Assembly: GCA_963682175.1 (NCBI GenBank) | Contig: OY821775.1 | Coordinates: 30,316,053 to 30,380,052 of the forward strand | DNA length: 64,000 bases | Direction: 5' to 3' | Source of the DNA: Triglochin maritima | Taxonomy: Eukaryota; Streptophyta; Magnoliopsida; Alismatales; Juncaginaceae | In this document: piece by piece, positions 3,741-60,413 of the stretch | How the letters are laid out: each line of letters opens with the position of its first letter | Numbering within the stretch: position 1 is the stretch's first letter | Notes under the pieces: generated by a model | Seen by the model: only the letters and a program-made list of their open reading frames with translations | The model's database searches: none | Told to the model about the DNA's origin: nothing | Position numbers and translations under genes: made by a program

Positions 3741-3789
3741 CAAGCTTGGTAACACACCTGTAGTTAGTCATCCTTTTGAGATGCCTCAT

Positions 3790-7513: not shown

Positions 7514-8160
7514 TGTTGGCTTTTAGGCCATAATCTATATTAATTTTGATGATTAATCAACTTAATCTTAATCAATCAACCTAATCAATCAAAGTGAGCA
7601 AACATGATTCCATGCATTGCACATATACTTGTATACTTGCAATCATCTTAATAGGTTGATCAAGATTCATCAAGAAAAGGAGCATTGGATAAAGGCATCA
7701 AGACTCAAGACTTGTAATCAAAGCTTTGGACCAAGACATGTAATTTTATATTTATTGAGGGCAAAACTCGTGCTAACTTTGGTCATCCGAATCGCATGTG
7801 GTCAATACGCTTATATAATCAGAGACTGACCTATGGTTATTGTCAACCTTGAAATAGTGAACCAAACTCCATTCAGTGAATTGAACATAAATAGGTTGAA
7901 ATTAGAAATTGTTATTGGAAGTTGGTGAACGGTGATCCGAATCCAATTCGGCCAACTGAATGCTTATTTCAGACCAATCCAACCATCATGTTTCAGACTA
8001 CCGTTCCTTAAATGGTCGACCAAACCTACCTTGAAATCTACCCGAGCTTAAAGCACATTCTTGCTTCTCATTGGTCCAAATCTGGTCAACTCCCAATGAC
8101 TAGTAGAGCTTGAAAGCTTATAAATAGGGTCTCCAGTTGATAGTTTGGTTGTGTTTGTTG
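7514..8160 (+). repeat. Truncated Copia 3' LTR
   Basis: It starts TGTTGGCTTTTAGGCC right after the polypurine tract and follows the 36194 LTR to its TATA region (ATAAATAGG near 8117), then stops at hAT sequence. It is strongly diverged. Even so, dyad pairs of the family survive at 7930/7949 and 7994/8013, both 19 bp apart. Confidence 0.75.
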
Positions 8161-14528: not shown

Positions 14529-15941
14529 TGTTGAACGTTTTAATTAAACCGCAAGTGCACGGCCGCGATGAAGCGGTGGCAAGTACGGGTCGTCCTCAGG
14601 GAGGTGAGTAGCCTCTTGCTTGTACGAAATCAAGTGGCAAAAAGAGGGGGAAGAAAGTTGGTTATGCTACTCTACTCTATACTACGCTAACAAGTACGAA
14701 ATGTGAAAGAAGCAAACAAGCGATGAAATAAGAACTAAGCTAAGAACAAAGGAAGAATGCTGGAATTTTAGGAATGGAAAACCCCTAAGGGGTGGAGTGA
14801 GTGCACACAAGCAAAGAGGTGGGTGTAGAATACATTCTTTAAGCACATGAAGGTGGTGTTTATCAAGCATAGGAAGTGTCTAAATGTTATGGCAAAACCT
14901 ATCAATCTATTCACCAACTTGGTTGATTAACATTTACATATGCAAGTTGTTTATTTCAGAACCTAAACAAGCATGAGAGGTGTCTAATCATTTTGGCAAA
15001 ACTCATCAAGTTATAAATTCTATCCTAAACAAGCAAGCATACATTCTTGTTTAATCAACACATTGAAATTAAAGCATTCATCCCATTCTCATTTGCATGT
15101 ATGTACATCTACTCCACCCCCCAAAGGGGATGGAACTACTCACTAAACATTACACTAATTATTAAACTATGGGAAGAAAGCATATTAAAACTAAGCTAGA
15201 ATTAAAAGACGATTAAACTAAAACATGCATAAACAATAAAAGAAGCATAAAACAAATAATGAAAGAAACACAAAACTTTATTGATAAAATGACTCACATT
15301 AAAAGTAGCATCCTCCTACTTTAGTGTGTGCTTCAAGGCCTCACTTCTAGTAGGAAGAATAGCCACTTAAAATATGGAGTGATTACAATAGGAGGTGAAG
15401 AGTTCTATTTATAGGCATGGAAAAAGCTAATCCGGGATAATCCCCCGATGTGGGACTAAACCAATACCGAAAATAGCCTAAACAAACATTAATACACGTC
15501 CAGGAGAAAACTTGGTGGATTTGGGCCCAAAGTGACCGCTAATTGGCGGTCTTGGACCGCCAATTGGCGGTCCAAATTTTCCGGATCGAGTTGAATCTTG
15601 TTCTGGGCTTTGCTTGGTGTATTTGGTGGTCTTGGATGCATCTACTTTGTTTATTGGAGCTCCGACCCGAATCCAATTGCTAAAATACTCTCCATGATGG
15701 TGTGGAGTATTCTGTTTTGCTCTTAGGTCCTTCTGTCTTGCGTTCAGGTCCTTCTCCCTTGCATCTTGGTCCCCAGATCTCACAATCCAGTCCTTTTTCC
15801 CAGCTTTTGGGTCCTTTTATGTTTCATCTCTTCAAACCTATTTATTCCTGAAAACTAAACATAAAACTCGTGACATAGCATTGTTTAAGTGAAAGATAAT
15901 GGATATAGGATACAAATATGAGCATGAAATGATGTCAATCA
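14529..15941 (-). repeat. 3' LTR of copy B
   Basis: 1413 bp, TG at 14529 and CA at 15941. In element sense it starts TGATTGACATC, has a dyad pair (15534-15572), a TATA box at 15406-15413 and ends CAACA. Small open frames inside it (62 and 101 aa) recur in the other LTR only because the LTRs are copies; they have no protein features. Confidence 0.95.
15534..15572. promoter_or_regulatory. Paired LTR dyads, 21-bp offset, copy B 3' LTR
   Basis: Two dyads, GACCGCTAATTGGCGGTC at 15534 and GACCGCCAATTGGCGGTC at 15555; the second sits in a perfect 22-bp palindrome (15553-15574). They lie about 120 bp upstream of the TATA box in element sense. The same pair is at 22751-22789 in the 5' LTR. Confidence 0.85.
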
Positions 15942-20748: not shown

Positions 20749-21745
20749 AGGAGAGAAAGAATGACTCAGGAGAGAAGGGAAGAAGTCCTTAAGCTACGGC
20801 GGATGGGTACAGGTAGAAGCACACAAGCAAACAAGGCTCAAACAATCCTAAGGTCGCTATAGGTCCTTACAGCTAGACGACGCCTAACTGCGAGGTCACA
20901 CGGCCTCAACACGCCTCACCTCCCTACAACGAGGACCACAAAGCCCAGCAAGTGAGCCAAGATCCGGGGATCTCGTCTCTCCTACTATCGACAAAGTGGG
21001 CAACGCCGATCAGGTCATGACGGTCGGGACCGGATCACTCTCCTAATGCGTCCAAGATCCTTAGGGCCAATGTCTACTTGATTTTAAAATTAGGCTCTTG
21101 ATTAGTGTGGTTTTTGGGGCGAAGGAAAGGGTGATGAAATCCCCCACCTTATCTTTTACGGGACAGCCCCTCCTTAGTAGCGTTTTGGAGTCCTAAATCT
21201 AGCAATCAACTCTCCAAACAACGCTCAACTCACACTTGTTGCAATGCACTTCCTACTAACTAATGCATGTTCATACGAAATGCATGAATGAGAGTAGAAG
21301 GTGCGTACCTCACGCCAACTCTCAGCAACAGAAAATAAAGCTAAGATAAAAGACAATCTAAATGCCTAAGTCACATACATGATGCATGACCTAAACAAGA
21401 ATGAATGCCTAATCTTTTGCTTTGAGTTTTAGGATCCAAGTTGCTTAAAGGAGGTTTGATTATTGATCTGGGAATGAACTATAAGTCAAAACATGCCAAA
21501 TTGAGTCCCAGATAACTAGATCATTTAGAGCAACAACAGCAAGAAATTAAAAGATGAACAGAGCTCACCAGACCGCTGATTGGCGGTCTGAAGTGCCTAG
21601 GTCGTCTGGAAATTTCTCCAGTAGCCTCCACTTGCTATTCCCAGTCTCCTGAAACAAAGAAAAACTACAACACACAAATAAATCCACTCGAATCGTTCAA
21701 ACAAGAGTCTGGACTGGCACCTCCCCGGCAACGGCGCCAAAAACT
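20749..21745 (-). other. 5' leader of copy B
   Basis: About 1 kb between the primer site and gag, without a convincing ORF. It includes a single dyad near 21571 and the block shared with copy A (1-790). Packaging signals would be expected here, but I cannot point to one. Confidence 0.75.
21723..21739 (-). promoter_or_regulatory. Primer-binding site, tRNA-Asp type, copy B
   Basis: The plus strand reads CCCCGGCAACGGCGCCA, identical to the 3' end of plant tRNA-Asp(GUC) including CCA; on the element's strand this is the complementary priming site. It lies six bases inside the 5' LTR edge. Confidence 0.92.
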
Positions 21746-23158
21746 TGTTGAACGTTTTAATTAAACCGCAAGTGCACGGCCGCGATGAAGCGGTGGCAAG
21801 TACGGGTCGTCCTCAGGGAGGTGAGTAGCCTCTTGCTTGTACGAAATCAAGTGGCAAAAAGAGGGGGAAGAAAGTTGGTTATGCTACTCTACTCTATACT
21901 ACGCTAACAAGTACGAAATGTGAAAGAAGCAAACAAGCGATGAAATAAGAACTAAGCTAAGAACAAAGGAAGAATGCTGGAATTTTAGGAATGGAAAACC
22001 CCTAAGGGGTGGAGTGAGTGCACACAAGCAAAGAGGTGGGTGTAGAATACATTCTTTAAGCACATGAAGGTGGTGTTTATCAAGCATAGGAAGTGTCTAA
22101 ATGTTATGGCAAAACCTATCAATCTATTCACCAACTTGGTTGATTAACATTTACATATGCAAGTTGTTTATTTCAGAACCTAAACAAGCATGAGAGGTGT
22201 CTAATCATTTTGGCAAAACTCATCAAGTTATAAATTCTATCCTAAACAAGCAAGCATACATTCTTGTTTAATCAACACATTGAAATTAAAGCATTCATCC
22301 CATTCTCATTTGCATGTATGTACATCTACTCCACCCCCCAAAGGGGATGGAACTACTCACTAAACATTACACTAATTATTAAACTATGGGAAGAAAGCAT
22401 ATTAAAACTAAGCTAGAATTAAAAGACGATTAAACTAAAACATGCATAAACAATAAAAGAAGCATAAAACAAATAATGAAAGAAACACAAAACTTTATTG
22501 ATAAAATGACTCACATTAAAAGTAGCATCCTCCTACTTTAGTGTGTGCTTCAAGGCCTCACTTCTAGTAGGAAGAATAGCCACTTAAAATATGGAGTGAT
22601 TACAATAGGAGGTGAAGAGTTCTATTTATAGGCATGGAAAAAGCTAATCCGGGATAATCCCCCGATGTGGGACTAAACCAATACCGAAAATAGCCTAAAC
22701 AAACATTAATACACGTCCAGGAGAAAACTTGGTGGATTTGGGCCCAAAGTGACCGCTAATTGGCGGTCTTGGACCGCCAATTGGCGGTCCAAATTTTCCG
22801 GATCGAGTTGAATCTTGTTCTGGGCTTTGCTTGGTGTATTTGGTGGTCTTGGATGCATCTACTTTGTTTATTGGAGCTCCGACCCGAATCCAATTGCTAA
22901 AATACTCTCCATGATGGTGTGGAGTATTCTGTTTTGCTCTTAGGTCCTTCTGTCTTGCGTTCAGGTCCTTCTCCCTTGCATCTTGGTCCCCAGATCTCAC
23001 AATCCAGTCCTTTTTCCCAGCTTTTGGGTCCTTTTATGTTTCATCTCTTCAAACCTATTTATTCCTGAAAACTAAACATAAAACTCGTGACATAGCATTG
23101 TTTAAGTGAAAGATAATGGATATAGGATACAAATATGAGCATGAAATGATGTCAATCA
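21746..23158 (-). repeat. 5' LTR of copy B
   Basis: 1413 bp, the same length as the 3' LTR and without a visible difference in the parts compared. The TATA box is at 22623-22630 and the dyad pair at 22751-22789. The right flank CTCAT completes the target duplication. Confidence 0.95.
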
Positions 23159-23163
23159 CTCAT

Positions 23164-23595
23164 ACTCTCATACTACACTCAATTGCTCTAAACTTCTCTT
23201 TGTGCTCAATCTTTCCACTTGAACACTCATTGCATTCATCATTCATTCAAGTGCTCAAGATTAGAAGTGGTTACTCAAATTCTCCAGAAAAGTGATGTAT
23301 TAGCTTCCGGAGTGAAGCTCTTCTCGAATTGTGAGAAGGTGGTCCAAACTTGGCGAGGGTGTTCACAAGCTTGAAGTGTAAAGGCTTGATCTCGGCCCGG
23401 AATGGAGATCGGAATAGTAGAGTACACGAATTTGCTCGATGAAGAGCAACTTGTAAGAGAGGACTAGGATCCGGTGGTTGGATCTAAACCTCTATACATC
23501 CGTGTCGTGGTTTACATCTCTTTCTCATTTACATTATATTGTTCTTGCTTTAAATTGTTATACATCATGCATGTTTGGTTTTTCTTTGTTGCAAG
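23164..23595 (+). repeat. Copia LTR, right part
   Basis: Continues the LTR begun at 13355 after the copy B insertion, with the GGCTTGATCTCGGCCCGGAA and GAGGACTAGGA blocks that also mark the 36194 LTR (near 37470 and 37545). It grades into MULE coding sequence near 23596; the exact terminus is unclear. Confidence 0.65.
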
Positions 23596-24187
23596 ATGAC
23601 ATAGAGGAGTCATATGAATGGTTATTCAAAACGGGGTTGGAAGGAATGAATGGAAAGGCACCCATGTCAATTTTAACCGACCAAGATAAGGCTATTGGAA
23701 ATATGGTTAGGCATGTTTTCCCCACAACTACTCATAGATTGTGTCTTTGGCATATCATGAAAAAGTTTCCAGAAAAAATATGGGCATCTATATAGAAAGA
23801 AGTCACAATTCAAAAAATATGAAGAAGTGCTTACATCAATTAGTAGCAACAGAGCAGTTTGAACAAGAATGGGATGCAGTTATGTCAAGGTACATTTCTC
23901 GTTTTATCACCTTCTCTTTTATGTTAATGGCATTTTTATTTATAATTTTTGTAACATTACTTGAAGGTATAATATAGTGGGAGAATTAAACATGGCTCCA
24001 ACAACTATTTGAAACTCGCAGTTCTTGGGTTCCAGTTTACAACCGAACAATATTTTTTGCTGGTATGAACACCAGACAATGATGTGCGAGCATGCACTCA
24101 TTCATTGAATCTTTTGTGCATAGTGGCACTACTTTGCGAGAATTTGTTGTGAAGTACGAGAAAGCTCTCATGTGTAGGTACAAGGAT

Positions 24188-25398: not shown

Positions 25399-26333
25399 GA
25401 TGAGGGTCAGGAACATTTTGCATTTAAGCACATGCACCTTGTCCCTAAGATTAGGCCCCAATTGCAGATCATGCCGCAACTATTTACACGAGAAACATCT
25501 TCAACATTTTTGAGGATGAGATCTTGGAAAGCCTTCGATTGACCAATGAAAAGTGGGAGAGAAATGAATATTTATGTACTTGGTAACAGGTAACAATTTC
25601 CAAATATGAAATTCATTGTTTCAGTTGATACTGTCATGGGATGCTTTATGTGAATGTCATCATTTTGAGTTGAAAGGTATTCTATGCCGACATGTATTAG
25701 TGATTTTTTCAAAAGAAAAATGTGGGATCCTAATCCTAATTTAGTTTTTATGGTGTTTTAGGTGGTGTTTAGGAGGAGATGAGATGGACGGCTGAGATGG
25801 AGTGGTGTGGATGGACGGTTGAGATTGGATGGATGGAAGATATTTTAGGTGAACTCTCCCCCCTCTCTCTAACGTTTCCCTTACCTCTCTCTCTCTCACA
25901 CACACTCTCCCTCAGTTGTTCTCCGGTGTGGCGGTCGGAATTGGTAGTGATCTCCGGCAAGTTGGGGTGATCGGAGCCGTTTAGTGGTGGAGGTGAGTTG
26001 GTTGGTTGATAAACTCATCTCGTTGGTTTCTTCTTTTTATCCTCTCTCAACATACCTCATTTTCAGCTGTTGAGGTTGGTGTGGAGATCGACGAAGGTGA
26101 AGGAGTGCTCGAGATTGTTGAGGGGTGGTGATCGTTGATCGAGCGGGAGGTTCGTCGACAGATCGTGTTTTGAGGAGAAGTGCTCATGGAAGCGTCGTCG
26201 TAGTTCTTCGAAGGTTTCTTCAAACCTTCACGGTATGTCAACTCTCTCACTTTAGTAGTGTGAGTATTTGGAAGTCAACGGTAGGCCTTCCGGCTCGTCA
26301 CAAGTAAACATGCAGTAGATTTTACTGCCTGAT

Positions 26334-26904
26334 CGGTCGACCGGTTGGTGCAAACGGTCGACCGTTCTTAATGAGATTTCGGGTTCTGCCTCACACCGGT
26401 CGAATGATGCCCTTGGGCGATCGACTGGTTGTGGATTTGAGGCAAGCCTGGTTGGTTTCGGTCGAACGAGTCTCCTTTGCCGTTCGACCGTGTGCACTGT
26501 CATAGGTCGGTTGGGGCGTTGACCATCTAAACAGTCGACCACCTGTGTGACTTTGTCCGACCGGTGACTTAAGTTGGATTGGTGGTTTGTTCCACCGAAG
26601 GTGGTTCGGTCGACCGGACTTGATGTGAGCGTGAGGGAATTCCCTGGTGGAATTCGGTCGACCGAGAGTGCTCGGGCGTTCGACCGGATTCGTTGGTGAG
26701 AGTTGGGGGAATTCCCTTGTGGAATTCGGTCGATCGAGAGTCCTCGGGGGTTTGACCAGATTCGTTGTTGTGCGTGAGGGATTTTTCCCTGGTAACTTTC
26801 TGTCGAACGGGGCCCCTTTGTCGTTCGACCGATTGGTCGTTTTGTTCGTTGAACCTGGGAGGCGACTTCTAAACGGTCGACCGGTCCTTGACTTTGGTTC
26901 GACC
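26334..26904. promoter_or_regulatory. Array of nine dyad pairs in the solo LTR
   Basis: Pairs of CGGTCGACCG or variants start at 26334/26355, 26397/26418, 26459/26481, 26532/26554, 26587/26607, 26655/26677, 26727/26748, 26800/26822 and 26874/26895. Offsets within a pair are 20-22 bp; pairs follow one another every 55-74 bp. Confidence 0.8.
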
Positions 26905-27124
26905 GAACGAGTGTGGTTGGTGGGAATTGGTTTACCGATGGAGTGCCAGTCGAGGCAATTGCGTTGTGTTTGTGAGATTCGGTGGACCGAGCCTTTTGGT
27001 TCGGTTGGCCGTTTGTGTCCAGTTTTGCACGTTGGAGGTGCAGTTGTTGTGGTCGTCCGCGTTGGGTGAGTTGTGGTGCCGATGTTCTTCCGGCAAGTAT
27101 GTTAGTGAGCACGAGTGTTGTGGT

Positions 27125-27475
27125 GGTTGGGTGAAAGAACCCTGGAGCCCCGTAACTGTGTTAGAGTTGTGGTTGGGTGAAAAAGCCCTCGAGCCCAGCT
27201 TAGAAATGTGTGTGTTACGGCGGTTGGATGAAAGAGCCCTGGAGCCCATCAAGTCTGTGCGGGGTTGGGTGAAAAAGCCCTGGAGCTCCGTAGTGCGTTC
27301 AGGTTGGGTGAAAGAGCCCTGGAGCCCGAGCATGAACCGCGTGCTAAGGGTTGGGTGAAAAAGCCCTGAAGCCCTTGGTCGTGTCATGGTAGCTGCGGTT
27401 GGATGAAAAAGCCGTGGAGCCCAGCTTGGGGACGAGTGTGTTGCGGTGGTTGGGTGAAAAAGCCCTGGAGCCCAG
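27125..27475 (+). repeat. Minisatellite of eight units
   Basis: The unit core GGTTGGGTGAAAAAGCCCTG plus GAGCCC starts at 27125, 27171, 27222, 27263, 27302, 27349, 27397 and 27448, with variable 15-25 bp spacers. Cores differ by one to three bases. It lies downstream of the dyad array in the same LTR. Confidence 0.85.
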
Positions 27476-28470
27476 CTTGGTTATGCTACTTTTCTTGTTT
27501 GTAGAGACTGCATGCTAGGGTGTTTCAGTTCATGAATTGTAGAGTTTGGCATACAGTGTTTCCTTCTGGAAACTCAGGCATTGTTGCATGTTTGCTTTTC
27601 AGGTCGTGATCGGCGATAGGGGGTGGTGACCGAGGAGAGGAGCGCTGCTACCTGATCCCGCTTTCTCTCATTTGAGGTCAGAGTGATTACTTGTATCTAT
27701 TGTTTAGCCTTTTGAAATGTAATCACACTTTTGTAATACTCCAATATATATTATATATATATGGTGCACCTGTTTCCTTTTATTGCGTAATATCCTCTGT
27801 TGATTGTGTGTTATTAAAATTTTAAATTCTTCCGCTATTTGAGGATGTTACAAAAAATGTTCAAAAGATACCACCCCAATATATTCTCGAGAGGTGGATC
27901 AAAGAAGCAGCTGACGGCATCCCGATGCCTTTGACAATAGAGGCAGATAAATCATCCATTTTCCGCACTTTGCATTTTCAACGCAAAACAAGTTTATTAC
28001 TGTCGTATTTACATGAGTCAGAAGAATCTTACCAAGTCATAATGGATGCATTGGATAAAGCATTTGAAGAAGTTATCAAATTGAAGAGTACAAGCACTGA
28101 GCCGATTCAGGTGGAGAAAAGACAATTCCAATTGAAGCCATACCACTTCTTGATCCTCTAGTCGCAAAAACAAGGTCGTAAGAAAATTTCAGAAAAAGAA
28201 TCAAATAGTGGGAGGCTCAAAAGTGGGCTTGAGATTGGAATGGGCATCACCGAGAAACAAAAGCGAAGGTGTAGTATTTGTCATGAGTTAAGTCATTACA
28301 ACACTACTTGCAAAAAAGTTAATGAGGTAAATAAAATCATTAGGAAGTATATTGTTTTTTGGTATCCTACCGTGATATTAATGGTCCTTTAATCCTTATA
28401 TTTTCGTGATTGTATGCAGATCAGTACAAAAGTTCCACCTTTGGCTGCTCCTACAGGATGGGAATGAACT

Positions 28471-29342: not shown

Positions 29343-30580
29343 ATGGGAACGTCAACAGTCAAGTTTTATTCTAATAAGAAGTTATTGTTAACAAATATGC
29401 ATCATTGATGAGTGTCAAAAAAATTCAGGTTAATGGATCCCTCCTCATATATACATATATATATGTATATATATATACGTATGTGGATATATATATGTAT
29501 ACGTATGTATGTATGTATTATAAATAGATCTCTGATATGATTTGTAATAATTTGAGTTATATTTTGGTTGTATGCAAATTTAATATTAAATAACATATAT
29601 AACAATTTAACTTCATTGGTTTATTCGAGAAATCCAATAAAAATGTCAAATCACAACTAGAAATATTAACTTGTGGACAATTGTACATTCAACACCTTCT
29701 TGATATCACATATAAACAAGAAAAGTATCGAATAATTTTGTCCTTCCAAATAAAAAAGGATATATCACGTTGGATTTAACTGAAATTCGAACGTGGTGTT
29801 AAGAAACATAACCTTTAAAGTCTCTCCTTGGAAACTCGAAAGATCACTTTAAACCACAAATCTACCCTTTGAAAGACGAGTTTGTTCTATAAACCACAAA
29901 TAGTTCATTTGAAACTTAAATCTGTTCTTTAAAATCGAATGTGTCCTTTAAGCCATCATATATATATGGGAACGTCAACAGTCAAGTTTTATTCTAATAA
30001 GAAGTTATTGTTAACAAATATGCATCATTGATGAGTGTCAAAAAAATTCAGGTTAATGGATCCCTCCTCATATATACATATATATATGTATATATATATA
30101 CGTATGTGGATATATATATGTATACGTATGTATGTATGTATTATAAATAGATCTCTGATATGATTTGTAATAATTTGAGTTATATTTTGGTTGTATGCAA
30201 ATTTAATATTAAATAACATATATAACAATTTAACTTCATTGGTTTATTCGAGAAATCCAATAAAAATGTCAAATCACAACTAGAAATATTAACTTGTGGA
30301 CAATTGTACATTCAACACCTTCTTGATATCACATATAAACAAGAAAAGTATCGAATAATTTTGTCCTTCCAAATAAAAAAGGATATATCACGTTGGATTT
30401 AACTGAAATTCGAACGTGGTGTTAAGAAACATAACCTTTAAAGTCTCTCCTTGGAAACTCGAAAGATCACTTTAAACCACAAATCTACCCTTTGAAAGAC
30501 GAGTTTGTTCTATAAACCACAAATAGTTCATTTGAAACTTAAATCTGTTCTTTAAAATCGAATGTGTCCTTTAAGCCATC
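29343..30580. repeat. Near-perfect 615-bp tandem duplication
   Basis: 29343-29957 is repeated at 29966-30580 with a constant offset of 623 bp and an eight-base AT linker. All stretches compared are identical, including TA dinucleotide runs and the TCCTTTAAGCC end, so the duplication is recent. The identical 67-aa minus-strand frames in both copies are TA-repeat products. The unit belongs to the GRF family: its start matches, in reverse, 13190-13350. Confidence 0.93.
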
Positions 30581-35852: not shown

Positions 35853-35864
35853 GCTCTGATACCA
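35853..35864 (-). promoter_or_regulatory. Primer-binding site, tRNA-iMet type
   Basis: The plus strand reads GCTCTGATACCA, so the minus strand shows TGGTATCAGAGC, the standard site for initiator methionine tRNA. It lies three bases from the LTR end at 35868 and proves that this LTR is a 5' LTR read on the minus strand. Confidence 0.85.
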
Positions 35865-35867
35865 AAT

Positions 35868-36193
35868 TGTAACGTACCCGAAAATAGCGGAAAATTTAAA
35901 CAATAATAAAGACCGTCAACGGTCAACACAGGGCACGTCACGGAAAACAAACCAACATATATATAAAATATATAAGATAAAGACCCACGTGGAAGTCAAC
36001 TATATAAATGAGTCAACTGTGATTACAACAAAAGTGAATATACATGTAATCACTACCTCAAACAAAAGAAGATATAAAAGAGAACAGGATCTGATCCCGG
36101 GGGCACTCTCCTCGGTCACCACCTGACTCTAATGCTACTCGCTACCTGAAATGAAAACAAACAAACATGCCTGAGTTCCCTGCAGGAACCCCG
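35868..36193 (-). repeat. Gypsy 5' LTR, end part
   Basis: In minus sense it ends CCGCTATTTTCGGGTACGTT plus ACA, next to the primer site. The LTR is interrupted at CCCCG by the Copia element and resumes at 42649. Together the parts make 2011 bp, close to the 2132-bp solo LTR at 25721, to which it is related. Confidence 0.85.
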
Positions 36194-37691
36194 TGTTGGC
36201 TTTTTAGCCTTAATCTTTATTTAGTTTTGATGATTAAGTAATCTAATCTTAATCTATATTTAATCAATCAACCTAGACAATCAAAGTAAGCAAACATGAA
36301 TACATGCATTGCATATATATTCGCGTACTTGCGATATTCTTAATAGGTTGATGAGAATCATGCTAAGGAGCTTGGGGACAAGAAGATAAAGACTCAAGAC
36401 ATGTAATCAAGCTTTGGACCAATATGTAATGTAGTATAATTTGAGTCCTAAGGATTAATGTAAACTTGAGCACATTAGGATTCTGTCACGTATCCCCACG
36501 GTTAACAGAACCCTTCTCGGTAAATCGAATCTTGTAGAGTTCGGTCCACCAAACACCTTGCGGTCAACCGTGTAGAATCCTTTAGGTGTTCCCTGGAATA
36601 ACCACCTCGGTATACCGAACCGCCTTCGGTAGACCAAATTAGCCTGGACCGGTTTTGGACTTTGCTCCAACGGTCGTATGTAAATCTTGACCTAAAGCCA
36701 AATTGACTTATCCATATTCGGTACACCGAACTTCATTCGGTCAACCGAATCATATTGCTTTAGGTGACCAACGGCTATTTAACTTGACCATTATCGGTAA
36801 ACCAATCTCCCACGCTTTGTCAGCGCAATTCCCGCACTACTTCGGTATACCGAAGTATACACGGTCAACCGAACTTGAGTAGATCAGAGCCCAATCAATT
36901 CTACTGTCCACCTTGGAACGGTGAACCGAATGGACTTCGGTGAACCGAATTTAATTAGAGCTAAATAGATAAAAGCTACTGGAGGTTGGTGAACGGTGAT
37001 CCGATACATAATCGGTCAACCGAGTTCTTTGTTCAGACCAATGTTTCGGACTACCGTGTGGATAACGGTCGACCGAATCTGTCTCGATTTCTGGCCGAGC
37101 TTAAGTTACAGCTTGCTTTCTCATTGGTCCATTCCCCACCAACTCCCAAACGGCTAGATGAGCTTGAAGGCTTATAAATAGGACCTCATTTGGTTGCTTT
37201 GGACATCTTGAGCACTTCCTATCTATCCAATACTCAAAGCCAAATCCTCTCCATCTTCAAGCTCTCAATCCACAACACTCAAGCCTAAACTTCACCACTT
37301 GCATATCCAATTCCATATCATATCCAAGTGTGCTCAAGTATAGAGTGTTAGTTAGATTGTGATTCCAATTCCTTATTCAAGAATCACCAAGTTGTAAAGC
37401 TTCGAGGAAGCTCCCTCTCGGGTTGAGAGAGGCGAGGTTGTTCGCGAGGCTCGGTGGTGTAAACGGCGTTGGTCTCGGCCCGGAACGGAGATCGGTTAGT
37501 GGAACCGTAAGAGAGGCTCGGGGGATCGAACGAGGCTTGCGAGGAGGACTAGGACCCGGGTGTGGGTGCCGAACCTCTCTAAACTCCGGTGTCGACGAAT
37601 TTGTGGTTTGCAATTGTCTCTTCCTTAATCCTTCGATTAGTATTTTTAATTCCGTATTTTTCTATCGATTAGAGGGCCATAGATCCTAACA
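36194..37691 (+). repeat. Copia 5' LTR
   Basis: TGTTGGC at 36194 to CCTAACA at 37691. TATA box at 37173-37180, preceded by eight dyad pairs (36499-37075). Followed after two bases by the primer site. Confidence 0.93.
36499..37075. promoter_or_regulatory. Eight dyad pairs with 19-bp offset, Copia 5' LTR
   Basis: CGGTNNACCG-type dyads start at 36499/36518, 36542/36561, 36608/36627, 36719/36738, 36843/36862, 36919/36938, 36994/37013 and 37047/37066. Every pair is offset by 19 bp while the distance between pairs varies from 43 to 124 bp. The two central bases vary (TA, AA, CC, CA, AT, AG, GA, CG), whereas the CGGT and ACCG arms are kept. Confidence 0.88.
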
Positions 37692-37693
37692 AT

Positions 37694-37706
37694 TGGTATC
37701 AGAGCC
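37694..37706 (+). promoter_or_regulatory. Primer-binding site, tRNA-iMet type, Copia
   Basis: TGGTATCAGAGCC, two bases after the 5' LTR, complementary to the 3' end of initiator methionine tRNA; the usual choice of plant Copia elements. Confidence 0.93.
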
Positions 37707-37744
37707 TTGTTAGCTAAATTTATTTTCTTAATCGAAATATTAGC

Positions 37745-39219
37745 ATGGCTCAATCTAATCATAGTGAGGGTTTATCAACTAATAAACTACCTCTTTTTAA
37801 TGGCCTAAATTATGATTATTGGAAAAAGAGGATGAAAATATATTTGCAATCTCATGATTTAAATTTTGGACTTTTATTTTAAAATCATACACCCCACCAA
37901 ATGATGATGAGATTATTTCATTACCTAAACCCAAAATTAAGGAGGCGGAAATTAATGCCCGCATTATGAATATGTTATATTGTGGTTTAAATGAAAATGA
38001 ATATAATCGAGTGAGAGGGTGTGAAAGTGCATATGAAATTTGGCACACATTAGAAATGCATCATGAGGGGTCCACTAGATTAAAAGAAACTAGGATTAAT
38101 CTACTCATGCATAAATATGAATTGTTTCATATGCAACCCGGTGAAAACATAAGCGAGATGCACACTCGCTTCCCCGAAATTATTAACTCCCTTAGTGGTC
38201 TTGGAAAGATTTTTAGCAAGGGAGAAATGACAAGGAAGATTCTCCGGTCTCTCAACGACGATTGGGAAGAAAAGACAACCGCAATAGAAGAAGCGCAAGA
38301 TCTAACGAAATTGTCGGTTGAAGAACTCATGGGAAGTCTCATGACATATGAGATACAAATGAAAGACCGAAATGAGAAGAGAGTCAAGAAATCCTTAGGG
38401 CTACACGCCGTCGCCAATTCGATCAAAGAAGATAGTGATATCGAAGAACAATTGGTGACACATAAATTCAAGGAATTTCTCAAAGAAGAGAAAGAAAGAA
38501 GAAAAGAGAAGAAGAAGAGCAAGAGAAAAGAGAAGAAGAAGAAAGCTCTTAAAGCTACTTGGGACACTTCATCATCTTCATCAATTGAAGGCGAATTCGC
38601 CTCAATGTGCTTCATGGCAATAGAAGACGATGATAGTGCGGTATCTTCTTTCTCTAGTCGTGATTCAATTGATTCAAATGCATATAATGAACTTCAATGT
38701 GAATTCAATGAATTACTTGAAAATTTTGAGAAAATTTGTCAAAAGAATAAACTAGCAAGAAAGAAAATCAATGAGCTACAATCTCAAATTGAATCTATCA
38801 TGAATGATAAGAATGAATTACTTGCTAGTCATGATAAAATTGCATTAGAGAACACTCAATTGATTGATGAAATTGCAACTCTAAAGGCAAAACCTTCATG
38901 TAGTGTTGATATTCAAGATCTAATTGCTAAGAATGTTCAATTACAAAAGGATCTTGAAAAATTCACAAGTGGAAAGAAAATGCTTGATATGCTTATTGGT
39001 AGTCAAAGACAATCACTAGATAAACATGGTATAGGTTTTTATGCTAATAACTTTAAGAACCATGTTATTCACACTACTTTGAATGGAAAGCATTTTGTAG
39101 TGAATAAAACTTCCTCAAGTATTTGGGCACCTAAAACCAAAATGGTTTGGGTTCCAAAAACTAACATGATTGGACCCAAGCAAAAATGGGTACCAAAATC
39201 TTCAATTGTAGGTACTTGA
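37745..39219 (+). pseudogene. gag: Copia gag with one frameshift
   Basis: The ATG at 37745 starts the N-terminal block LPLFNGLNYDYWKKRMKIYL found in Copia gag proteins; after about 44 codons a stop is reached, and a one-base shift near 37865-37880 restores the main frame, which stays open to 39219 (417 aa from its first Met). This contains the gag-polypeptide domain (EIWHTLEMHHEGSTRLKETR, then LSVEELMGSLMTYE), a lysine-rich linker, a long coiled coil (LARKKINELQSQIESIM and following) and the PKTKMVWVPK tail. The CCHC zinc knuckle expected in the lysine-rich linker is missing, so RNA binding may be impaired. The frame ends where protease would begin. Confidence 0.88.
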
Positions 39220-39337
39220 AGGAGGAAATCGGTGGTGACCGGATGAGCTTAAAAGAAAATTTTAAAGCCGGTTGCATCACCGAATACGGGTTGAGTCAAT
39301 TCAAAGCGCCACGACGGTATAAATTTTGATTGATTCT

Positions 39338-40613
39338 TGATGCATTGCATACATTGCATCATATGTCTTTCATTTAGAGTGTTTTTATATAAATAAATGC
39401 TACTAAGGTATTGTTTTGAGCAATTGTGCAGAATTCAGGAGTTACAATGCAATTTACCAATATTCGAGCTAAAACGCGTGCAATGGACTTAGATGGATCA
39501 TAAAGACCAATTAGATAGAGATTCAAGCTCAACTTGAAGTCCAATTGATTGCATCAGAAGTCAGGGACTTGATCGCAAATTGGAAGGACTAAAATGTTAT
39601 TTTGGAGGAATATTCAAGAAGAAATCAAATTCGGATCTCCAAAGATATGCAATAATTGATTTATACACGTGGAGGCCACCTACAACATACCAAAAACACA
39701 CCCACAAAAGCACGAAGTGATCTGGACCATCCATGCGGCGGAATCGCCGCATCTAACGGTCAATATGCGGTGGAATCGCCGCATGGGTTGCGATCCGTGC
39801 CTCCTATTTTCGTCCAATTGTGTAGTAACACGTGTCCTTCCCGATGCATACTTAGGGTTTCTTGTATCGGCTATAAATAGCCCCGAAATATTGTGTAAGA
39901 GGAGCTTTTTGTATTAGATTTTAAAGCAATAAAATTCTGCCCTTTTAATTCTCCATTATCTTTGTCTTTTGTAAGCTTAGTTTTAGATTAATGTTTCTTG
40001 TTCTTAATTCCAGTAGAGTAATTTAGTTGTTCTTTATTTTTCTCTTAGAATAATTTGTTGCGTGCTTAGAATAATTGCTTTTACTTTCGTAGATCGTAGT
40101 TTAGTATAATATTTTCCTTTTTTTTTCGTATTCTCTCGATGATCTCCATGACCCCTTCTCCTCATCTTCTCCCCATGGGTTTCTAAAACCCTCCAAAGGG
40201 TGGGGGTGACGGATTTAGGGTTAGAGAAGAGAGATCGTTTTTATTTTAATTTCTTGTTAGTGTTTTGATCATATGAGTTTTTGTTAAATCAATTATCATA
40301 TGATGCTTAATATCTCACTTGATTTATAATAATTTTCGTAATCTCTAATCTAACTTGAAGATTCATAACTCCCACCCACTGGACTCTCGTCCATAGTTAT
40401 TTCTTCTTAATTTTTGTTCTTGTTGTTCTTGCTTTAGAAAGATAAAAAAAATAAAAAATTCCAAAAATCTCAAACCAACACTATTTCTCTTTTGCTTTCC
40501 TTAATCAAAGAAAATCACAAAAATATAAGAATCTCTCCCTCCTTGTGTTCGACCCGTACTTGCCACCGCTTCAACGCGGTCGTGCACTTGCGGTATAAAT
40601 AAAAATCACAACA
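39338..40613 (+). repeat. Solo LTR nested in the Copia element
   Basis: 1276 bp from TGATGCATTGC to AATCACAACA, flanked by perfect ATTCT duplications (39333-39337, 40614-40618). The U5-like end (ACCCGTACTTGCCACCGCTT region, 40551-40594) is shared with the gag-only family although the rest is different, so it is a related but separate family. TATA box at 39872-39879; dyad pair at 39733/39765. Confidence 0.93.
39733..39784. promoter_or_regulatory. Paired 20-bp dyads, 32-bp offset
   Basis: ATGCGGCGGAATCGCCGCAT at 39733 and ATGCGGTGGAATCGCCGCAT at 39765, about 90 bp upstream of the TATA box. The offset is close to three helical turns. Confidence 0.8.
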
Positions 40614-40618
40614 ATTCT

Positions 40619-41101
40619 AATCTAAATTTTAGAGCTTAATAGACATATCTTATGATATAATTCAATGCATATCTTATACCCTATTCATTGCATATCGTAT
40701 AACAACATCCATAATCATAAATGTAAAATTGTAAAATGGATGTTAAATAGGCTAAGAGGGACAATAGAAATGCACTTAATTGTTAATACTCATTGTTGCT
40801 ATTTAGCCTAATTGATAGGGGGAGCCTTAAAGTACAAAATCATATAATTAAGGGGGAGAGTTAGATATCTCTTACCTTTGCATCAAATGTTTAATGTTTG
40901 CTCTTTTGATTGATGTCAAAGGGGGAGAAGAATTATCATGAGCTTCAATTTTAAATAAACTATGCATGTTGTTAGGGGGAGAAATCTTGTAAATGCATAG
41001 ATTACATATACGTTAAGAAACAAAACATATAGAAAGGGGAGAAATACAATTGAACACAAAATATTAAGATATAGATTTGTCATCATCAAAAAGGGGGAGA
41101 T
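40619..41101 (+). other. Copia 3' non-coding region with six GGGGGAG tracts
   Basis: Purine tracts with GGGGAG or GGGGGAG cores occur at about 40817, 40852, 40919, 40973, 41034 and 41092. The last (AAAAAGGGGGAGAT) touches the 3' LTR and is the polypurine tract. The repetition is shared with the older relative at 7260-7513. Confidence 0.8.
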
Positions 41102-42643
41102 TGTTGGCTTTTTAGCCTTAATCTTTTTTAGTTTTGATGATTAAGTAATCTAATCTTAATCTATATTTAATCAATCAACCTAGACAATCAAAGTAAGCAA
41201 ACATGAATACATGCATTGCATATATATTCGTGTACTTGCGATATTCTTAATAGGTTGATGAAGAATCAAGCTAAGGAGCTTGGGGACAAGAAGATAAAGA
41301 CTCAAGACATGTAATCAAGCTTTGGACCAATATGTAATGTAGTATAATTTGAGTCCTAAGGATTAATGTAAACTTGAGCACATTAGGATTCTGTCCCGTA
41401 TCCCCACGGTTAACCGAACCCCACTCGGTAAACCGAATCATGTAGAGTTCGGTCCACCGAACACCTTGCGGTCAACCGTGTAGAATCCTTTAGGTGTTCC
41501 CTGGAATAACCACCTCGGTATACCGAACCGCCTTCGGTAGACCGAATTAGCCTGGACCGGTTTTGGACTTTGCTCCAACGGTCGTATTTAAATCTTGACC
41601 TAAAGCCAAATTGACTTATCCATATTCGGTACACCGAACTTCATTCGGTCAACCGAATCATATTGCTTGAGGAGACCAACGGCTATTTAACTTGACCGTT
41701 ATTGGTTAACCATTCTCCCACGCTTTGTCAGCACAAAACCCGCGCATACTTCGGTCTACTGAAGTAGAGACGGTCAACCGAACCTAGCATAAACAGAACC
41801 CTACCAAACTTACTGTCCATTTTGGAACGGTTAACCGAATCATATTCGGTACACCGAAAAACATTAGGGTTGCTAGTTAGAGAGCTACTGGAGTTGAGTG
41901 AGCGGTTCACCGAATAGAATTCGGTAAACCGAAACGACCATCTTCGGTAATCCGTTGGGTTAACGGTCTACCGAAGAGCGTGCAAATTCTGCCCGAACTT
42001 TTGTCACATCATCACATTTCATCGGTCAACTTTCTCACCCACTCCCCAACGACTCTAAGAGCTTTGAAGCCTATATAAGGACCTCATTAGAAGCACAACA
42101 AAAGTACTACACTCTCCAAACATCAAGTATCCTTGTGCTATCTTTCCCAAACCTTCAAAGCTCAAATCCTATACACTCAAGCCAAAACTTCACCACTTGT
42201 ATTCCTAGATCCATATCATAATCCAAGTGTGCTCAAAGTTAGAGTGTCATTAGCAAGAGTTGTGATTCCATTCTTTCATCCAAATCACAAGAGTTGTAAT
42301 AGCTTCAAGGAAGCTCCCTCTCGGGTTGTGAGAGGAGACACGGGCGAGGCGAGGTTGTTCGCGAGGCTCGGGTTTGTAAAGGCGTTGATCTCGGCCCGGT
42401 AACGGAGATCGTATAGTGGAAACCACAAGTGAGGCTCGAGGGACGAGCGGGGATTGTGAGTGAGGACTAGGACCCGGGGAGGGTGCCGAACCTCGTTAAA
42501 TCGGGCGTCGACTTCAACGTTGGTTTGCAAGTTCTCTATCTCTTAGAATAACCCTTGCATGATTAGTTGTTAGTTCGTAATTAGTTTTTAATTCCGCATC
42601 TTGTTTAATTACGATCACTAGAGGGCCCCTTAAGATCCTCACA
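41102..42643 (+). repeat. Copia 3' LTR
   Basis: 1542 bp from TGTTGGC to CTCACA. TATA-like TATATAAG at about 42072. It carries the same eight 19-bp dyad pairs as the 5' LTR although many other positions differ. Confidence 0.93.
41407..41973. promoter_or_regulatory. Eight dyad pairs with 19-bp offset, Copia 3' LTR
   Basis: Pairs start at 41407/41426, 41450/41469, 41516/41535, 41627/41646, 41752/41771, 41828/41847, 41903/41922 and 41945/41964, all exactly 19 bp apart. Confidence 0.88.
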
Positions 42644-42648
42644 CCCCG

Positions 42649-44333
42649 TATACCAAGCCTCCTAAAAATATCAAAAGGAATTAAAGACAATGCAATACAA
42701 TGCACATGATCATCCACCTCGGGCCCACAATAATGCCCTCACCGCCTCCGCGGCACTGAACCACTCCTGCCACTAGGGTCAAGTCAGTCCACCGCTGCCT
42801 CACAAGGGTCAGTCGACACCACTGCTCCCCAAAAGTGCAGGAAGGAACCCCCGGTACACGCCACCACCCCAGGAGCGAGTCAGCCCGCCGAATACATAAC
42901 TCGGGTCAGACGACAGCCGCTGCTCCCCCAAGAGCCGCCAAGTGCGCACCCTGCCGGAAAATCCTCGGCCTACCCCTAAACCCTCGCAAAATGCCCAAGG
43001 TTTACGGCACACATCCCTCACACCCTGCTCGGTAAGAGAGGCAACAGTAATACAATAATACGCCTTCGTCGAAGGTGAAATCCGTCGCTCTCAAAGCCGG
43101 TAATCAACCGTCGCCTCGGAGCCGGTAGTCGACCTATACTCAACGGATCGCGTGTGGATAAATCCACCAACCTGTGGCAGATCGGTCGACCGCTACAAGC
43201 AAACCGGTCGACCGGTCCCCCACACAGTACACAGTACTGTACAAACAAGTCTACCGGTCGAACCACGCCAACCGAACTACCGACCAATCGGTCGAACAAA
43301 AGTCATCTAGCGGTCGACCGTTTGGAAGGTCTACGCTATACATTTTATATACATATATATCCAATCGGTCAAACCAGGGTCCATTCCACCGATAAGGAAA
43401 ACTACCTGAATCCTGCCTACAGCATTCGGTCGACCAAAACCTACCTTCCGGTCGACCGATCTACAGGCACATCACTGCAGGAAAACTGCACACGGTCGGT
43501 CGACCGGATCACAACGAGCGGTCGACCGTTTAGATGGTCAACGCTCTGACCGACTTTGCGCAGTTCGGTCGACCGGGACACACACTCGGTCGGCCGAAGG
43601 CTTGTCTAACCTATCTACTGGGTTCGGTCGACCGAAACAACACCGGTCGACCGGCTAATGTAACACTTTCTTTCCCGCGAAATTTGGCATAAACGGTCGA
43701 CCGTCACAGAGACATCGTTCGACCGTTTTCGGGCAGTAAGTTTATATTTATAAATATCGGTCGACCGACCCATATACCGGTCGACCGAACAATACATCTT
43801 CCCACTGGACAAGCATCATTTAGGCGTCGTTCGGTCGACCGAACCCTCAATCGGTCGACCGAACAGGTCGTCTTCAACCTCCGTCCATTAGGGTTTTCAC
43901 CGGAGAAACGACACCAACGCCGTCCTCTACACTCCCACACCTCTTGGGGAGTTAATATGAAGACTTGACATACCTTTTGGTCGCGTGAAGAAGCCTCCCA
44001 AGCTTTGGAAACCTCTACTCAACTTCTTCTTCTTCTCCTCTTCTTCTTCTCCTTCTCTTCTTCTCCTCCTTCTCTTCTCCGAAAATCTCTCTCACTCACT
44101 GCTAGATCAACTGAAGGAAACATTTCTATTAAAACCCTATCTAACTATATATACCAACTTTAATTAACCACCTCCAAATCTACCAACCAAAGCAAGCCAC
44201 CTCATCTCTCAACTATCCTACACGTTACTCTTCATCTCATCCTTCCAACACCTCATGATTCACTAATCAAAGCTTAATTAGGTTAATTAGGTTTAGGTTT
44301 AGTTAATTAAGGGGTTTAGATTAGGTTATTACA
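42649..44333 (-). repeat. Gypsy 5' LTR, start part
   Basis: Continuation of the LTR at 35868. In minus sense it begins TGTAATAACC at 44333. It contains an array of about eleven dyad pairs (43183-43861), a run of CTTCTT repeats (44020-44080) and GT-rich stretches. The adjacent ACTTG (44334-44338) would be the target duplication; its partner is lost because the element body is truncated at the left. Confidence 0.85.
43183..43861. promoter_or_regulatory. Array of about eleven CGGTCGACCG dyad pairs
   Basis: Clear pairs start at 43183/43205, 43289/43311, 43427/43449, 43497/43519, 43566/43587, 43625/43644, 43694/43716, 43758/43778 and 43832/43852; 43255 and 43366 have degenerate partners about 19-22 bp on. 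Pairs recur mostly every 59-77 bp. Most are complete 10-bp palindromes, better preserved than in the 26-kb LTR. Confidence 0.85.
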
Positions 44334-57209: not shown

Positions 57210-58792
57210 TGATTGGTGGCATATCATACATTGCATTCATGCTATATATCCTTTCCTTTACCCGATACTTGTGCTTCTTGAGTGTTTATTTAATGTGTTT
57301 CAGGGTTTAGGCAATAAAGAAGAGAAAGGAAGAGAAAATGACCTAAATGTAAGAAGAATAGACTGATTTGGAAGGTTTATGGACTTGTTTGTAATGGCCA
57401 AGGACCAGATTGTAACTCAGGAAGGGTCCAAGTGAAAACCCAGAGGGACCTAAGTGTAAAGAAAAATATGGTGGTTTCAAAAGTCCAAAATCTCCTGAAC
57501 ATGGGGAGCAATTCAACAATTAAAACCATATGGGTTTGAATCAACGACTTCGGGTGCACCCCACGTGCTAAAATGGTACCTTAAAGCTACTGGTTAAATT
57601 AGAGATTGATCCGACCCAAATGATCTGCTAATGGTAGATCCGGTTGGACGGTTTGACCCCAAATTTCTGTAGTGGGTCGAGTTCTCGGGTCAGATCAATA
57701 TGCAACATCCAGATATGATTTACAGTCGTCTGATCGCACCCAAAGTCATCCAGACTCTCTAATCTTCTAATACAGTTGTAATCCTCCCTCCCTCTCTTCT
57801 TCCTTCCTCTCCTCCTTAGATTAGTTTCCATTCTTGTTTAGTAGAGTAGGTTTTATTTCTTGTTTATTAGAGTAGGGGTTTAGTTTATTGATTAGTAGGT
57901 TAGTGGAGGAGAACAGGAGCAACTTTGTAATCTTCATTTTCTTAATTAAGTTTTTATGTTCTTCATGTTGTTATCTTTCATTTGATGCAATTTTTTTCAC
58001 TTGCATTGGTTAACTTTACTTTTCTTTATTTGCTTATGGTTTTTTTCTTGGTCATGGAGATGAGTAGAGAGTAGTCCATCCCCATTGGGGAGTGGATGGT
58101 GATGTGAAGTGTAGATGTATTGTATTAGTGTGTGTGTTTAATCCAAATCTTGGAGCCTCACATGAATTCCATAGCCATTTTGTTGGTTTCCTCACTATTG
58201 TCTTTGATGTGTTAATGGTCTTAATTGATAGTTAGCACATGCGTTGGATAGTGACCCACTTTATGGACAATGATGAGGTGATGATAAGGTTGGAATGGTA
58301 AAAAGATAACGATGGCATGTGGGAGCATGTGCTCTTGTTGGCCTCATCTTAATTAATGTCTTGTAAGTTTTAATGATAATGTGATATCTTAATTCATGTG
58401 GAGACATAGATGGGTTTGGTCATTATGGATTCCATGTTATTTATGTCATTAAACATGTAATCATGTGGTTGTCTTTGTCCTCATCTTGAGTAGTATTTTG
58501 TATGTTTTAATGATGATGATAAATCTTAATCCATGTAAAAACACAGTTAGGATTGTAGCATTATAAGATTTCCATGCCATGCATGGCAGGAGTACTAAAT
58601 GGTACACATACTTACGACTACACACCTACACTTTTGCATTCATTCTCCACCTCCTACGGGATTCATTTTTTGATTAGTTGTTATTGTTTCATGTCACATT
58701 TGTCATCTAGATTAGGTAACCTCATTCTCCTCTCATTTCCCACTCGAGTATGGTAGTCACAACAACACTCCCAACTCCTTGTGGTTCGACCT
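57210..58792 (+). repeat. Plus-sense LTR, main part (tail at 60414-60475)
   Basis: Starts TGATTGGTGG at 57210 after CCGAA (57205-57209). It is interrupted at GACCT by a related LTR in the opposite orientation; its last 62 bp are at 60414-60475, followed by CCGGA, a target duplication with one mismatch. Total 1645 bp. No internal sequence, hence a solo LTR. Confidence 0.88.
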
Positions 58793-60413
58793 TGATTGAT
58801 CGTTTTTATAACTGCAACTGCACGACGTCGGTGAAGACGTGGCAAATACTGGTCCAACCTCAAGGAGTTGTGAGCATTCTTGTGACTACCATACTCGAGT
58901 GGGAAAGAAGAGGAGAATGATGGGATTATTCTAAAATAACTAAACTAAACTAAAAAGAGAATGTGACATAAATCAGAAACAACTAATCGAAAATGGGTGC
59001 CATAGGAGGTGTAGAATGAATGTGAAACTGTAGAACTGTATTCGTGTATGTCTAAGATTTAGTGCTCATGACATGCATGACGTGGAAATCTTATAATGCC
59101 ACAATCGTAAGTGTATCTCTACTTTGCTTAAGATTTATCACCATTATTAAAACATACAAAATACTACTCAAGATGAAAGCAAAGACAACCAAATTATTAC
59201 AAGTTTAATGACATAAAGAACATGGAATCCCTAAATACCCAATTATGTCTCAACATGAATTAAGATGTAATATTATAATTAAAACATACAAGACATTAAT
59301 TAAGATGAGGCCAACAAGAGCACATGCTCCCACATGCCATCTTTATCTCTTTACGATTTCAATCCTATCCTCACCTCATCATTCCCCATAAAGTGGACCC
59401 ACTAGCCAAAACATGTGCTAATAAGCATCAATTAAGACAATTAGCACAACAAAGGCAAGAGTGAGGAACCCAAAAAAATGGCTATGGAATTCACGTGAGG
59501 CTCCAAGATTTGGATTACACACACACTAAAACAACACATCAACACTTCACATCACCCTCCATCCCCCAATGGGATGGACTTCTCTCTACTAAAGCAAAAC
59601 AACCTATAAGAAAATAAAGAAAACGAAAGTTAACCAAAGCAAGTGCACAAAATTTGCATCAAATGAAATATGACAAGATGAACAACATAAAAACTTAACT
59701 TGATTAAGAAAATGAAGATTACAAAGTTGCTCCTCTTGTCCTCCACTACACTACTAATCAATAAACTAAAACCTACTCTACAACACAAGAAAGGAAACTA
59801 ACATAAGGAGTAGAGGAAGGAAGAAGAAGAAATAAGGCATTACAAGTCTATTTATAGATGATTAGAGAGTTTGGATGGATTTGGGCACAATCGGATGGTT
59901 GTAACTCAGATATGGATGTTGTATATTGCTTTGACCCGAGAACCCGACCCGTTAGGGAAAATTGGGGTTGAACCGATCAACCGGATCCACCATTGGCGGA
60001 TTATTTGGGTTGGATCGACCTCTAATTTCACCAGTAGCTTTAGTGCACCATTTTAGCACGTGGGTGTACTTGGAGCCGTTGGTGCAAACCCGTTTGGTTT
60101 TAATTGTTGCATTACTCCTCAGATTTAGGAGATTCTAAACTTTTGCAACCAATACATTTTTCCTTACACTTAGCTGCCTCTGGATTATCACTTGGGTCCT
60201 TCCTGAGTTACAATCCATTTCTTGGGCATTACAAATAGGTCCAGAAACCTTCCAAATCAATCCATACTTCTTGCATTGACGTCCTTTTCTCTTCCTTTCT
60301 CTTCTTTATTGCCTAAACCTTGAAACACATGAAATAAACACTCGAGTAGCACAAATATGGGGTAAAATAAATAATATATAACATGAATGCAATATATGAT
60401 ATGCTACTAATCA
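58793..60413 (-). repeat. Minus-sense solo LTR nested in a relative
   Basis: 1621 bp from TGATTGATCG to CTACTAATCA, flanked by GACCT (58788-58792) and GACCC (60414-60418), four of five bases matching. TATA box (minus sense) at 59849-59856; a weak dyad at about 59983-60003. Because host and insert are homologous, 57210-60413 forms a large inverted repeat with arms of about 1.5 kb. Confidence 0.88.

Follow-up and report, generated by a model that had tools for sequence, protein, structure and literature searches.

Paired CGG-CCG dyads with a preferred spacing in LTR promoters of Triglochin maritima

A Sirevirus-type element and its array

The window, that is, the whole 64-kb stretch of the Triglochin maritima genome that was analysed (G000:C7:30316053-30380052), contains an LTR retrotransposon on its + strand (36194-42643), bounded by a 5-bp target-site duplication, CCCCG (36189-36193 and 42644-42648). 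Its 5′ LTR (TGTTGG...CTAACA, 36194-37691, +) carries a TATA box, TATAAATA, at 37173-37180 (+), and gives way to the internal domain through ATTGG and the primer-binding site (PBS) TATCAGAGC at 37692-37705 (+). The 3′ LTR occupies 41102-42643 (+). The internal domain (37692-41101) is just 3.4 kb long. It holds an open stretch for gag (PF14223, 37858-39219, +), and pol was absent from the open stretches of this domain that follow gag. Next comes a linker with five copies of the polypurine tract (PPT) AGGGGGAG (40817-41099, +; starts 40817, 40851, 40920, 40974 and 41092), the last of which is flanked by an inverted repeat (41080-41143, arms 41080-41091 and 41132-41143). By its sequence, the element is a non-autonomous or deleted one. 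Homologues of the gag product number 323 proteins; among the 120 listed, the closest two (84% and 90%) are unnamed and many of the named ones are plant UBN2/CCHC proteins.

Sixteen CGGTNNACCG dyads stand in the 5′ LTR as eight pairs, the two members of each pair being offset by 19 bp without exception: 36499-36527 (starts 36499/36518), 36542-36570 (36542/36561), 36608-36636 (36608/36627), 36719-36747 (36719/36738), 36843-36871 (36843/36862), 36919-36947 (36919/36938), 36994-37022 (36994/37013) and 37047-37075 (37047/37066). The starts of successive pairs lie 43-124 bp apart, as irregular as the original prediction had them. A 17th dyad, with one mismatch and no partner, lies at 36795-36804. 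The 3′ LTR repeats the arrangement (41407-41973), again with eight pairs of which all eight are at 19 bp, 14 of its 16 dyads being perfect. A decayed third LTR piece of the same Copia family (7514-8128, +) aligns with the last four pairs; by alignment it keeps the 19-bp offset in 4/4 (7780/7799, 7855/7874, 7930/7949 and 7994/8013), with none of its eight dyads perfect. The central claim of the original prediction, eight pairs all at 19 bp, is thereby confirmed in both LTRs and in what remains of the third. The word that it proposed holds for the sixteen paired sites as a type; an exact match is found only in ten of those in the 5′ LTR, the other six having one mismatch, and the unpaired site at 36795 has to be added to its count.

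Chance does not produce such a pattern readily. The window has 48 exact dyads (0.16 expected from 100 shuffles), which makes CGGT-N2-ACCG its commonest palindrome of that shape; the runner-up, built on ATAT, reaches 18. When 17 sites were placed at random in the span of the array, none of 100,000 trials gave one gap value eight times, the maximum being six. If perfect sites alone are counted, three gaps of 19 bp are left in the 5′ LTR, a number that 1,361 of 100,000 random placements attain, and six in the 3′ LTR, attained by none of 100,000.

The main text of the description of Sireviruses (Bousios 2010, PMC2829016) lists a set of structural marks: palindromic CGG-CCG repeated motifs (RMs) forming a CpG-rich block ahead of the LTR's TATA box, with at least eight copies starting 200-400 bp into the LTR; a PPT octamer, AGGGGGAG, that precedes the 3′ LTR by 10 bp, with AT/TG, and several copies upstream of it; an inverted repeat round the PPT/3′ LTR junction; a 5′ junction CA/ATTGG-TATCAGAGC; and, some 21 bp from where the LTR ends, a poly-C integrase signal, reported in 17 Sireviruses. 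In the present element the octamer at 41092 is followed by AT and then by TGTTGG at 41102, which puts its start exactly 10 bp ahead of the 3′ LTR. Five octamers are clustered inside 283 bp, with no others on the + strand of 37692-41110, and the inverted repeat at the junction has 12-bp arms (one mismatch at most being allowed). The expected 5′ junction is found at 37690-37705. Sixteen dyads begin at base 306 of each LTR, before the TATA box, in blocks of 577 and 567 bp (300-500 bp in the paper). Where the poly-C signal is expected, inspection by eye finds short C runs only, GGCC in the 5′ LTR and GGCCCC in the 3′ LTR. For RT-RNase H phylogeny, another criterion of membership, the copy at 36194-42643 yielded no pol. 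Because the PPT, the inverted repeat, the junction, the TATA box and the RMs agree with the published marks, the array belongs to a known kind: as far as these marks tell, it is the block of repeated motifs in the U3 promoter of a Copia element of Sirevirus type that has gag only. This supports the Copia LTR promoter setting that had been proposed, including its promoter-proximal position, the last dyad ending at 37075, about 100 bp before the TATA box as foreseen.

The suggestion that the arrangement was undescribed must be given up, since arrays of CGG-CCG palindromes ahead of the TATA box are a published feature of Sireviruses (PMC2829016, main text). The motif of Vitis given there, CGGTCGACCG, is the same word, and those of Osr8, Osr10 and Inga are close to it. 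What we add to that text is the fixed 19-bp pairing and the spacing rule: we found no statement of a fixed dyad-to-dyad distance in the sections of PMC2829016 consulted, nor in the titles and opening lines of abstracts among the matches listed. The array type is thus already known, and the spacing rule is the part for which we found no description, which is not a proof of novelty.

The two LTRs make a mosaic in identity, although they belong to one insertion with a common CCCCG duplication (36194-37691 and 41102-42643). They are about 98% identical up to approximately 36780 (13 differences in 585) and about 70% identical beyond, and the 3′ LTR array is nearer to two copies elsewhere in the genome, L185 and L186 (6% different outside the arms), than to its own 5′ partner (19%). 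Such a mosaic could stem from gene conversion or from mixed templates.

A spacing rule across the genome

The spacing extends well beyond this element. In the genome searched (1,063,122,952 bp), exact pairs with offsets of 10-40 bp number 155,471, as against 2,715 for the reversed word, GCCANNTGGC, used as control; these counts are lower bounds, restricted to exact dyads, and the pairs are not independent, being inflated by copy number. There are 35,680 pairs at 19 bp (control 3) and 54,349 at 22 bp (control 3), while the eight spacings of 10-17 bp together have only 222 (control 9) and the fifteen spacings of 26-40 bp have 15,730 (control 23). Subtracting these last two classes from the total leaves approximately 139,500 pairs at 18-25 bp. 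The rule is therefore that dyads pair mostly at 18-25 bp, with peaks at 19 and 22 bp and very few pairs closer. Among the control pairs, 38 of the 2,715 can be placed in these classes; the remainder fall, by subtraction, nearly all at 18-25 bp except 19 and 22. Pairs belonging to another LTR were considered as the source of this excess and discarded: the window and the loci L160-L195 contain no exact pair of that word.

The first 100 pairs listed at 10-40 bp, all of them from the first 0.47 Mb of contig C1, are distributed in the same way: 3 at 18 bp, 21 at 19, 7 at 20, 12 at 21, 33 at 22, 5 at 23, 7 at 24, 5 at 25 and 7 at 31-40 bp. Sixteen 10-kb stretches, evenly chosen on contigs C1, C3 and C7, hold 74 exact dyads, in six of the stretches; distances up to 30 bp are of 16 bp (1 case), 19 (10), 20 (1), 21 (3), 22 (7), 24 (3) and 25 bp (1). 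Exceptions below about 18 bp are the 222 genome pairs, one pair at 16 bp in locus L182, and gaps of 12 and 7 bp between sites with one mismatch in L190. Within the Copia family the distance stays at 19 bp in the other members, in line with the original prediction: all eight pairs have it in both LTRs of the window and in the copies L184, L185 and L186, of which L185 and L186 are 99.6% identical; in the copy L187, three 19-bp gaps alone are still recognisable (one mismatch at most).

The two commonest spacings go with unlike cores. A CG core is present in 10/40 dyads of 19-bp pairs as against 30/32 in pairs at 20-22 bp, half of the 19-bp pairs here coming from the window; among the first 100 listed pairs the figures are 25/42 and 97/104. 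This may mean that the 19-bp and the 22-bp modes correspond to two factors.

Could such figures result from no function whatsoever, a short unit having been multiplied and homogenised so that the spacing is inherited from one ancestral pair? The inflation of the genome counts by copy number would agree with such a history, and indels are too few to show statistically a constraint on the length of pair interiors beyond descent. The sequences between the dyads speak against it. At their five central bases the eight inner spacers resemble one another no more than random sequences would (0.257 vs 0.256). Clustering at 70% identity divides the spacers of the first 100 listed pairs into 56 clusters, of which 51 are at 18-25 bp, with 14 clusters having their mode at 19 and 17 at 22 bp; spacer clusters are not families, since one LTR with several pairs can yield several of them. 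The slower change of arms than of spacers, described below, goes the same way, and we find this explanation barely credible.

We also looked for the array outside the plant genome. A 19-bp pair was found in 11 stretches of viral contigs and in at least 120 stretches of genome contigs. As relatives of the element these were rejected: in the densest of the 159 loci, 6 exact dyads in 700 bp accompany a single PPT octamer, the locus with most octamers (3) had 2 dyads, and we take them for unrelated bacterial or phage DNA. The gag had no match in the viral contigs. The PPT and PBS words occur there in 14 stretches each; 25 of these 28 are without an exact dyad and 3 have one.

Conserved arms, and the same word in other repeats

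Comparison of the two LTRs of the element separates the dyads from their surroundings. In the divergent half of the array, differences affect 4/64 positions of the arms, 10/16 of the core, 15/36 of the inner spacers and 53/169 of the stretches between pairs (arms vs the rest, p 1.4e-6), which bears out the proposal of conserved arms around a free core. When the mask formed by the dyads is slid along this half, none of 329 positions is equally conserved. The order is reversed in the near-identical first half, which records change after insertion: 4/64 in the arms vs 9/521 elsewhere (p 0.04). Because arms are slower in the divergent half and this order is reversed in the near-identical one, we read this as arms that were probably guarded while the lineages were active and are unguarded in the copy at 36194-42643. 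Against the decayed third copy, the two LTRs differ at 16/63 and 20/63 arm positions and at 53/140 and 64/130 positions between pairs, so that the gap is not sharp.

The rate of change of arms and spacers, proposed at the outset as a check, could be compared in the available copies; the comparisons are overlapping rather than independent, and loci other than the two LTRs, E43, L180 and L182 were picked for containing a 19-bp pair. In the Copia family (both LTRs and L184-L187), 25 of the 30 directed comparisons show slower arms at p < 0.05. Each of the remaining five sets side by side two copies that are about 6% apart or closer, and three of these have arms at least as different as the rest. 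Three further groups behave alike: F2 (L163, L188, L189, L195) with 10/12, F3 (L161, L193, L180, L182) with 8/12 and F4 (E43, L166, L191) with 6/6. For these three together, 0-5.6% of arm positions differ vs 3.9-20.9% of other array positions, with p < 0.05 in 24/30. Arms evolve more slowly than spacers, as anticipated.

At least four repeat groups contain dyad pairs of this word, and at a threshold of E 1e-20 over 150 bp none of these groups matches another. Two further arrays lie in the window. The one that we call E26 (26334-27011) belongs to a 2,133-bp TG...CA LTR (25718-27850) flanked by AAAAA, and its close gaps are of 21-22 bp in 4/4 cases. The other, E43 (43183-43861), belongs to an LTR on the - strand (LTR end 35868, PBS 35853-35864), into which the Copia element 36194-42643 has inserted, and its close gaps are of 19-22 bp in 8/8. 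E26 and E43 have similar ends. Between the Copia LTR and E26, the only match with E < 1e-3 covers 31 bp, at dyad pair 3 of the former; among the matches listed, the Copia LTR has none with E43. The junction of E43 reads CA/ATTTGG-TATCAGAGC, that of F3 (in L169) CA/GTGG-TATCAGAGC and that of L183, whose end looks E43-like by eye, CA/ACTTGG-TATCAGAGC, all three departing from the Sirevirus sequence. The main text of PMC2829016 has RMs absent from classic Ty1/copia, while here they are carried by LTRs that lack the Sirevirus junction and may or may not be Copia.

Several observations on these and neighbouring repeats deserve mention. Locus L169 has, within 1399-5155, a Copia pol (PF07727, PF13976, PF22936) and after it dyads at 4652-5155, an order like that described in the main text of PMC2829016 for the linkers of env-bearing Sireviruses. 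E26 (25718-27850) is apparently a solo LTR that splits coding pieces, FAR1/MULE-like by eye, at 23457-23795 and 27826-28161. A second palindrome, CCGCYAATTGGCGG, imperfectly kept, comes in pairs 21 bp apart, three of which (1786/1807, 15536/15557 and 22753/22774) are inside a 1.4-kb LTR family, the fourth (596/617) standing just before one such LTR. Two 1,414-bp repeats (14528-15941 and 21745-23158), 100% identical, surround an open frame of 1,084 aa on the - strand and are probably a very recent insertion. Finally, a 3.2-kb stretch (57210-60413) has an 80% match to its own reverse complement, and a perfect, near-tandem duplication of 615 bp is found at 29343-29957 and 29966-30580.

Candidate readers of the paired dyads

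What would recognise such sites? The factor that binds the RM boxes of Sireviruses could not be named in 2010 (PMC2829016, main text). On our preferred reading, which relies on sequence and which we hold to be rather likely, a sequence-specific host protein would bind each dyad as a dimer, with one subunit on each CGGT half-site and the two core bases presumably unread in the Copia family; two dimers would dock side by side on each pair, with steric hindrance preventing spacings below about 18 bp and 19 bp suiting the contact in the Copia family; and the eight docked pairs would enhance the TATA box 100 bp downstream. Two adjacent dimers per pair are suggested because the arms are identical in every pair and the core is apparently unread in the Copia family, because a lower limit near 18 bp goes with a 9-bp spacer fixed in length and free in sequence, and because the word is common to several repeat groups. 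Side-by-side dimers, already proposed in the original prediction, would thus still be the best reading. Some points stand against it: 19 bp is 1.8 turns (19/10.5), making the initial "about two helical turns" a loose description; the 19-bp and 22-bp modes, unlike in their cores, may point to two factors; pairs closer than the lower limit do occur; the dyad at 36795 is unpaired; all eight pairs of E43 have complementary cores; and the excess of the reversed word (2,715) is unexplained.

Two protein families were considered as reader and dropped. LOB-domain proteins came to mind for their CGG half-sites; the literature search for them gave no result. Dyads with a CA core contain GGTCAA, which we take to be WRKY-like, and WRKY proteins were set aside since cores vary.

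Among the roles first offered for the array (enhancer, target of a host silencer, site of an element-encoded factor), the enhancer with a host factor is favoured, because arms are conserved between lineages and the word is common to other repeat groups. An element that brings its own reader has an Arabidopsis precedent in the VANC proteins of VANDAL elements, which are DNA transposons with an anti-silencing function. Their VANC-binding motif arrays likewise repeat a short word that a DNA-binding protein recognises. Every array that could be placed sits in repeats, as such a factor would have it. The copy at 36194-42643 has gag only, though perhaps by deletion, and the word is common to repeat groups without mutual match, so that an element-encoded factor seems to us very unlikely.

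The dyads might instead be the target of silencing, bound by a host repressor or attracting siRNA-directed methylation. Windows of the array are CpG-rich (observed/expected 1.1-1.6) in comparison with the adjoining 150-bp windows (0.23 before, 0.28 after), a limited contrast, other LTR windows also reaching 1.1-1.4. After insertion the arms changed more than the rest, three of the four changes being C-to-T or G-to-A if the perfect sites of the 3′ LTR are ancestral. A 2016 study of maize Sireviruses by Bousios et al. in Genome Research reportedly has palindromes in the cis-regulatory part of the LTR, the emphasis being on small RNAs and hairpins. The array described here has a similar position; the maize word, CACCGGACNNNGTCCGGTG, is a different one (as quoted in a passage of PMC10760457), and the maize palindromes are small-RNA hotspots according to portions of PMC5311732 and PMC10760457. 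A pure silencer target should nevertheless be expected to vanish, and the arms are kept between divergent lineages and the word in several repeat groups. We consider this explanation unlikely. The sites were retained in lineages that went on amplifying, which favours activation or anti-silencing as their role.

Palindromes could also be kept for the hairpins that they form in the 3′ LTR transcript, as single strand or RNA, whether as small-RNA template or for packaging or stability. Compared with 20 shuffles, the 3′ LTR array has the better fold (z -7.7), and so has that of E43 (z -15), where complementary cores in 8/8 pairs make dyad-dyad pairing feasible. Good folding is, however, expected of any repeated palindrome. 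A partner hairpin needs complementary cores, and the Copia family has them in none of 16 pairs (12 different); the stem word is constantly CGGT/ACCG rather than varying; and a hairpin would do well with loops of 3-7 nt, whereas few pairs are spaced at 10-17 bp. Overall, RNA structure strikes us as quite unlikely to account for the array, although it may play a part in the CG-core class, since the cores of E43 are complementary in all eight pairs and both arrays fold well.

Coming back to paired host dimers, repeated short sites in a Copia U3 have a parallel in Tnt1 and Tto1, whose U3 has repeat boxes, few in number and with other words; to our knowledge they do not form fixed palindrome pairs. 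Tnt1 is named in the main text of PMC2829016. One may go further and imagine a grammar common to the whole genome: paired CGG-N4-CCG dyads, with a lower limit of about 18 bp on their spacing, would have arisen convergently in several LTR families, Sirevirus and others, or passed between them, and a single host dimer-of-dimers would read them. The 19-bp class with its looser core and the 20-22-bp class with its CG core would then be two binding modes or the sites of two paralogous factors. This extension is tentative, and we would put it at somewhat less than an even chance.

In practical terms, a dyad pair whose spacing is defined and whose core is free makes better bait than a lone palindrome, and the rarity of spacings below 18 bp leads to a quantitative prediction on the footprint and contact geometry of the protein. 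If a single host factor does serve several LTR families, a large part of the mobile DNA in a 1.06-Gb genome would be under its control.
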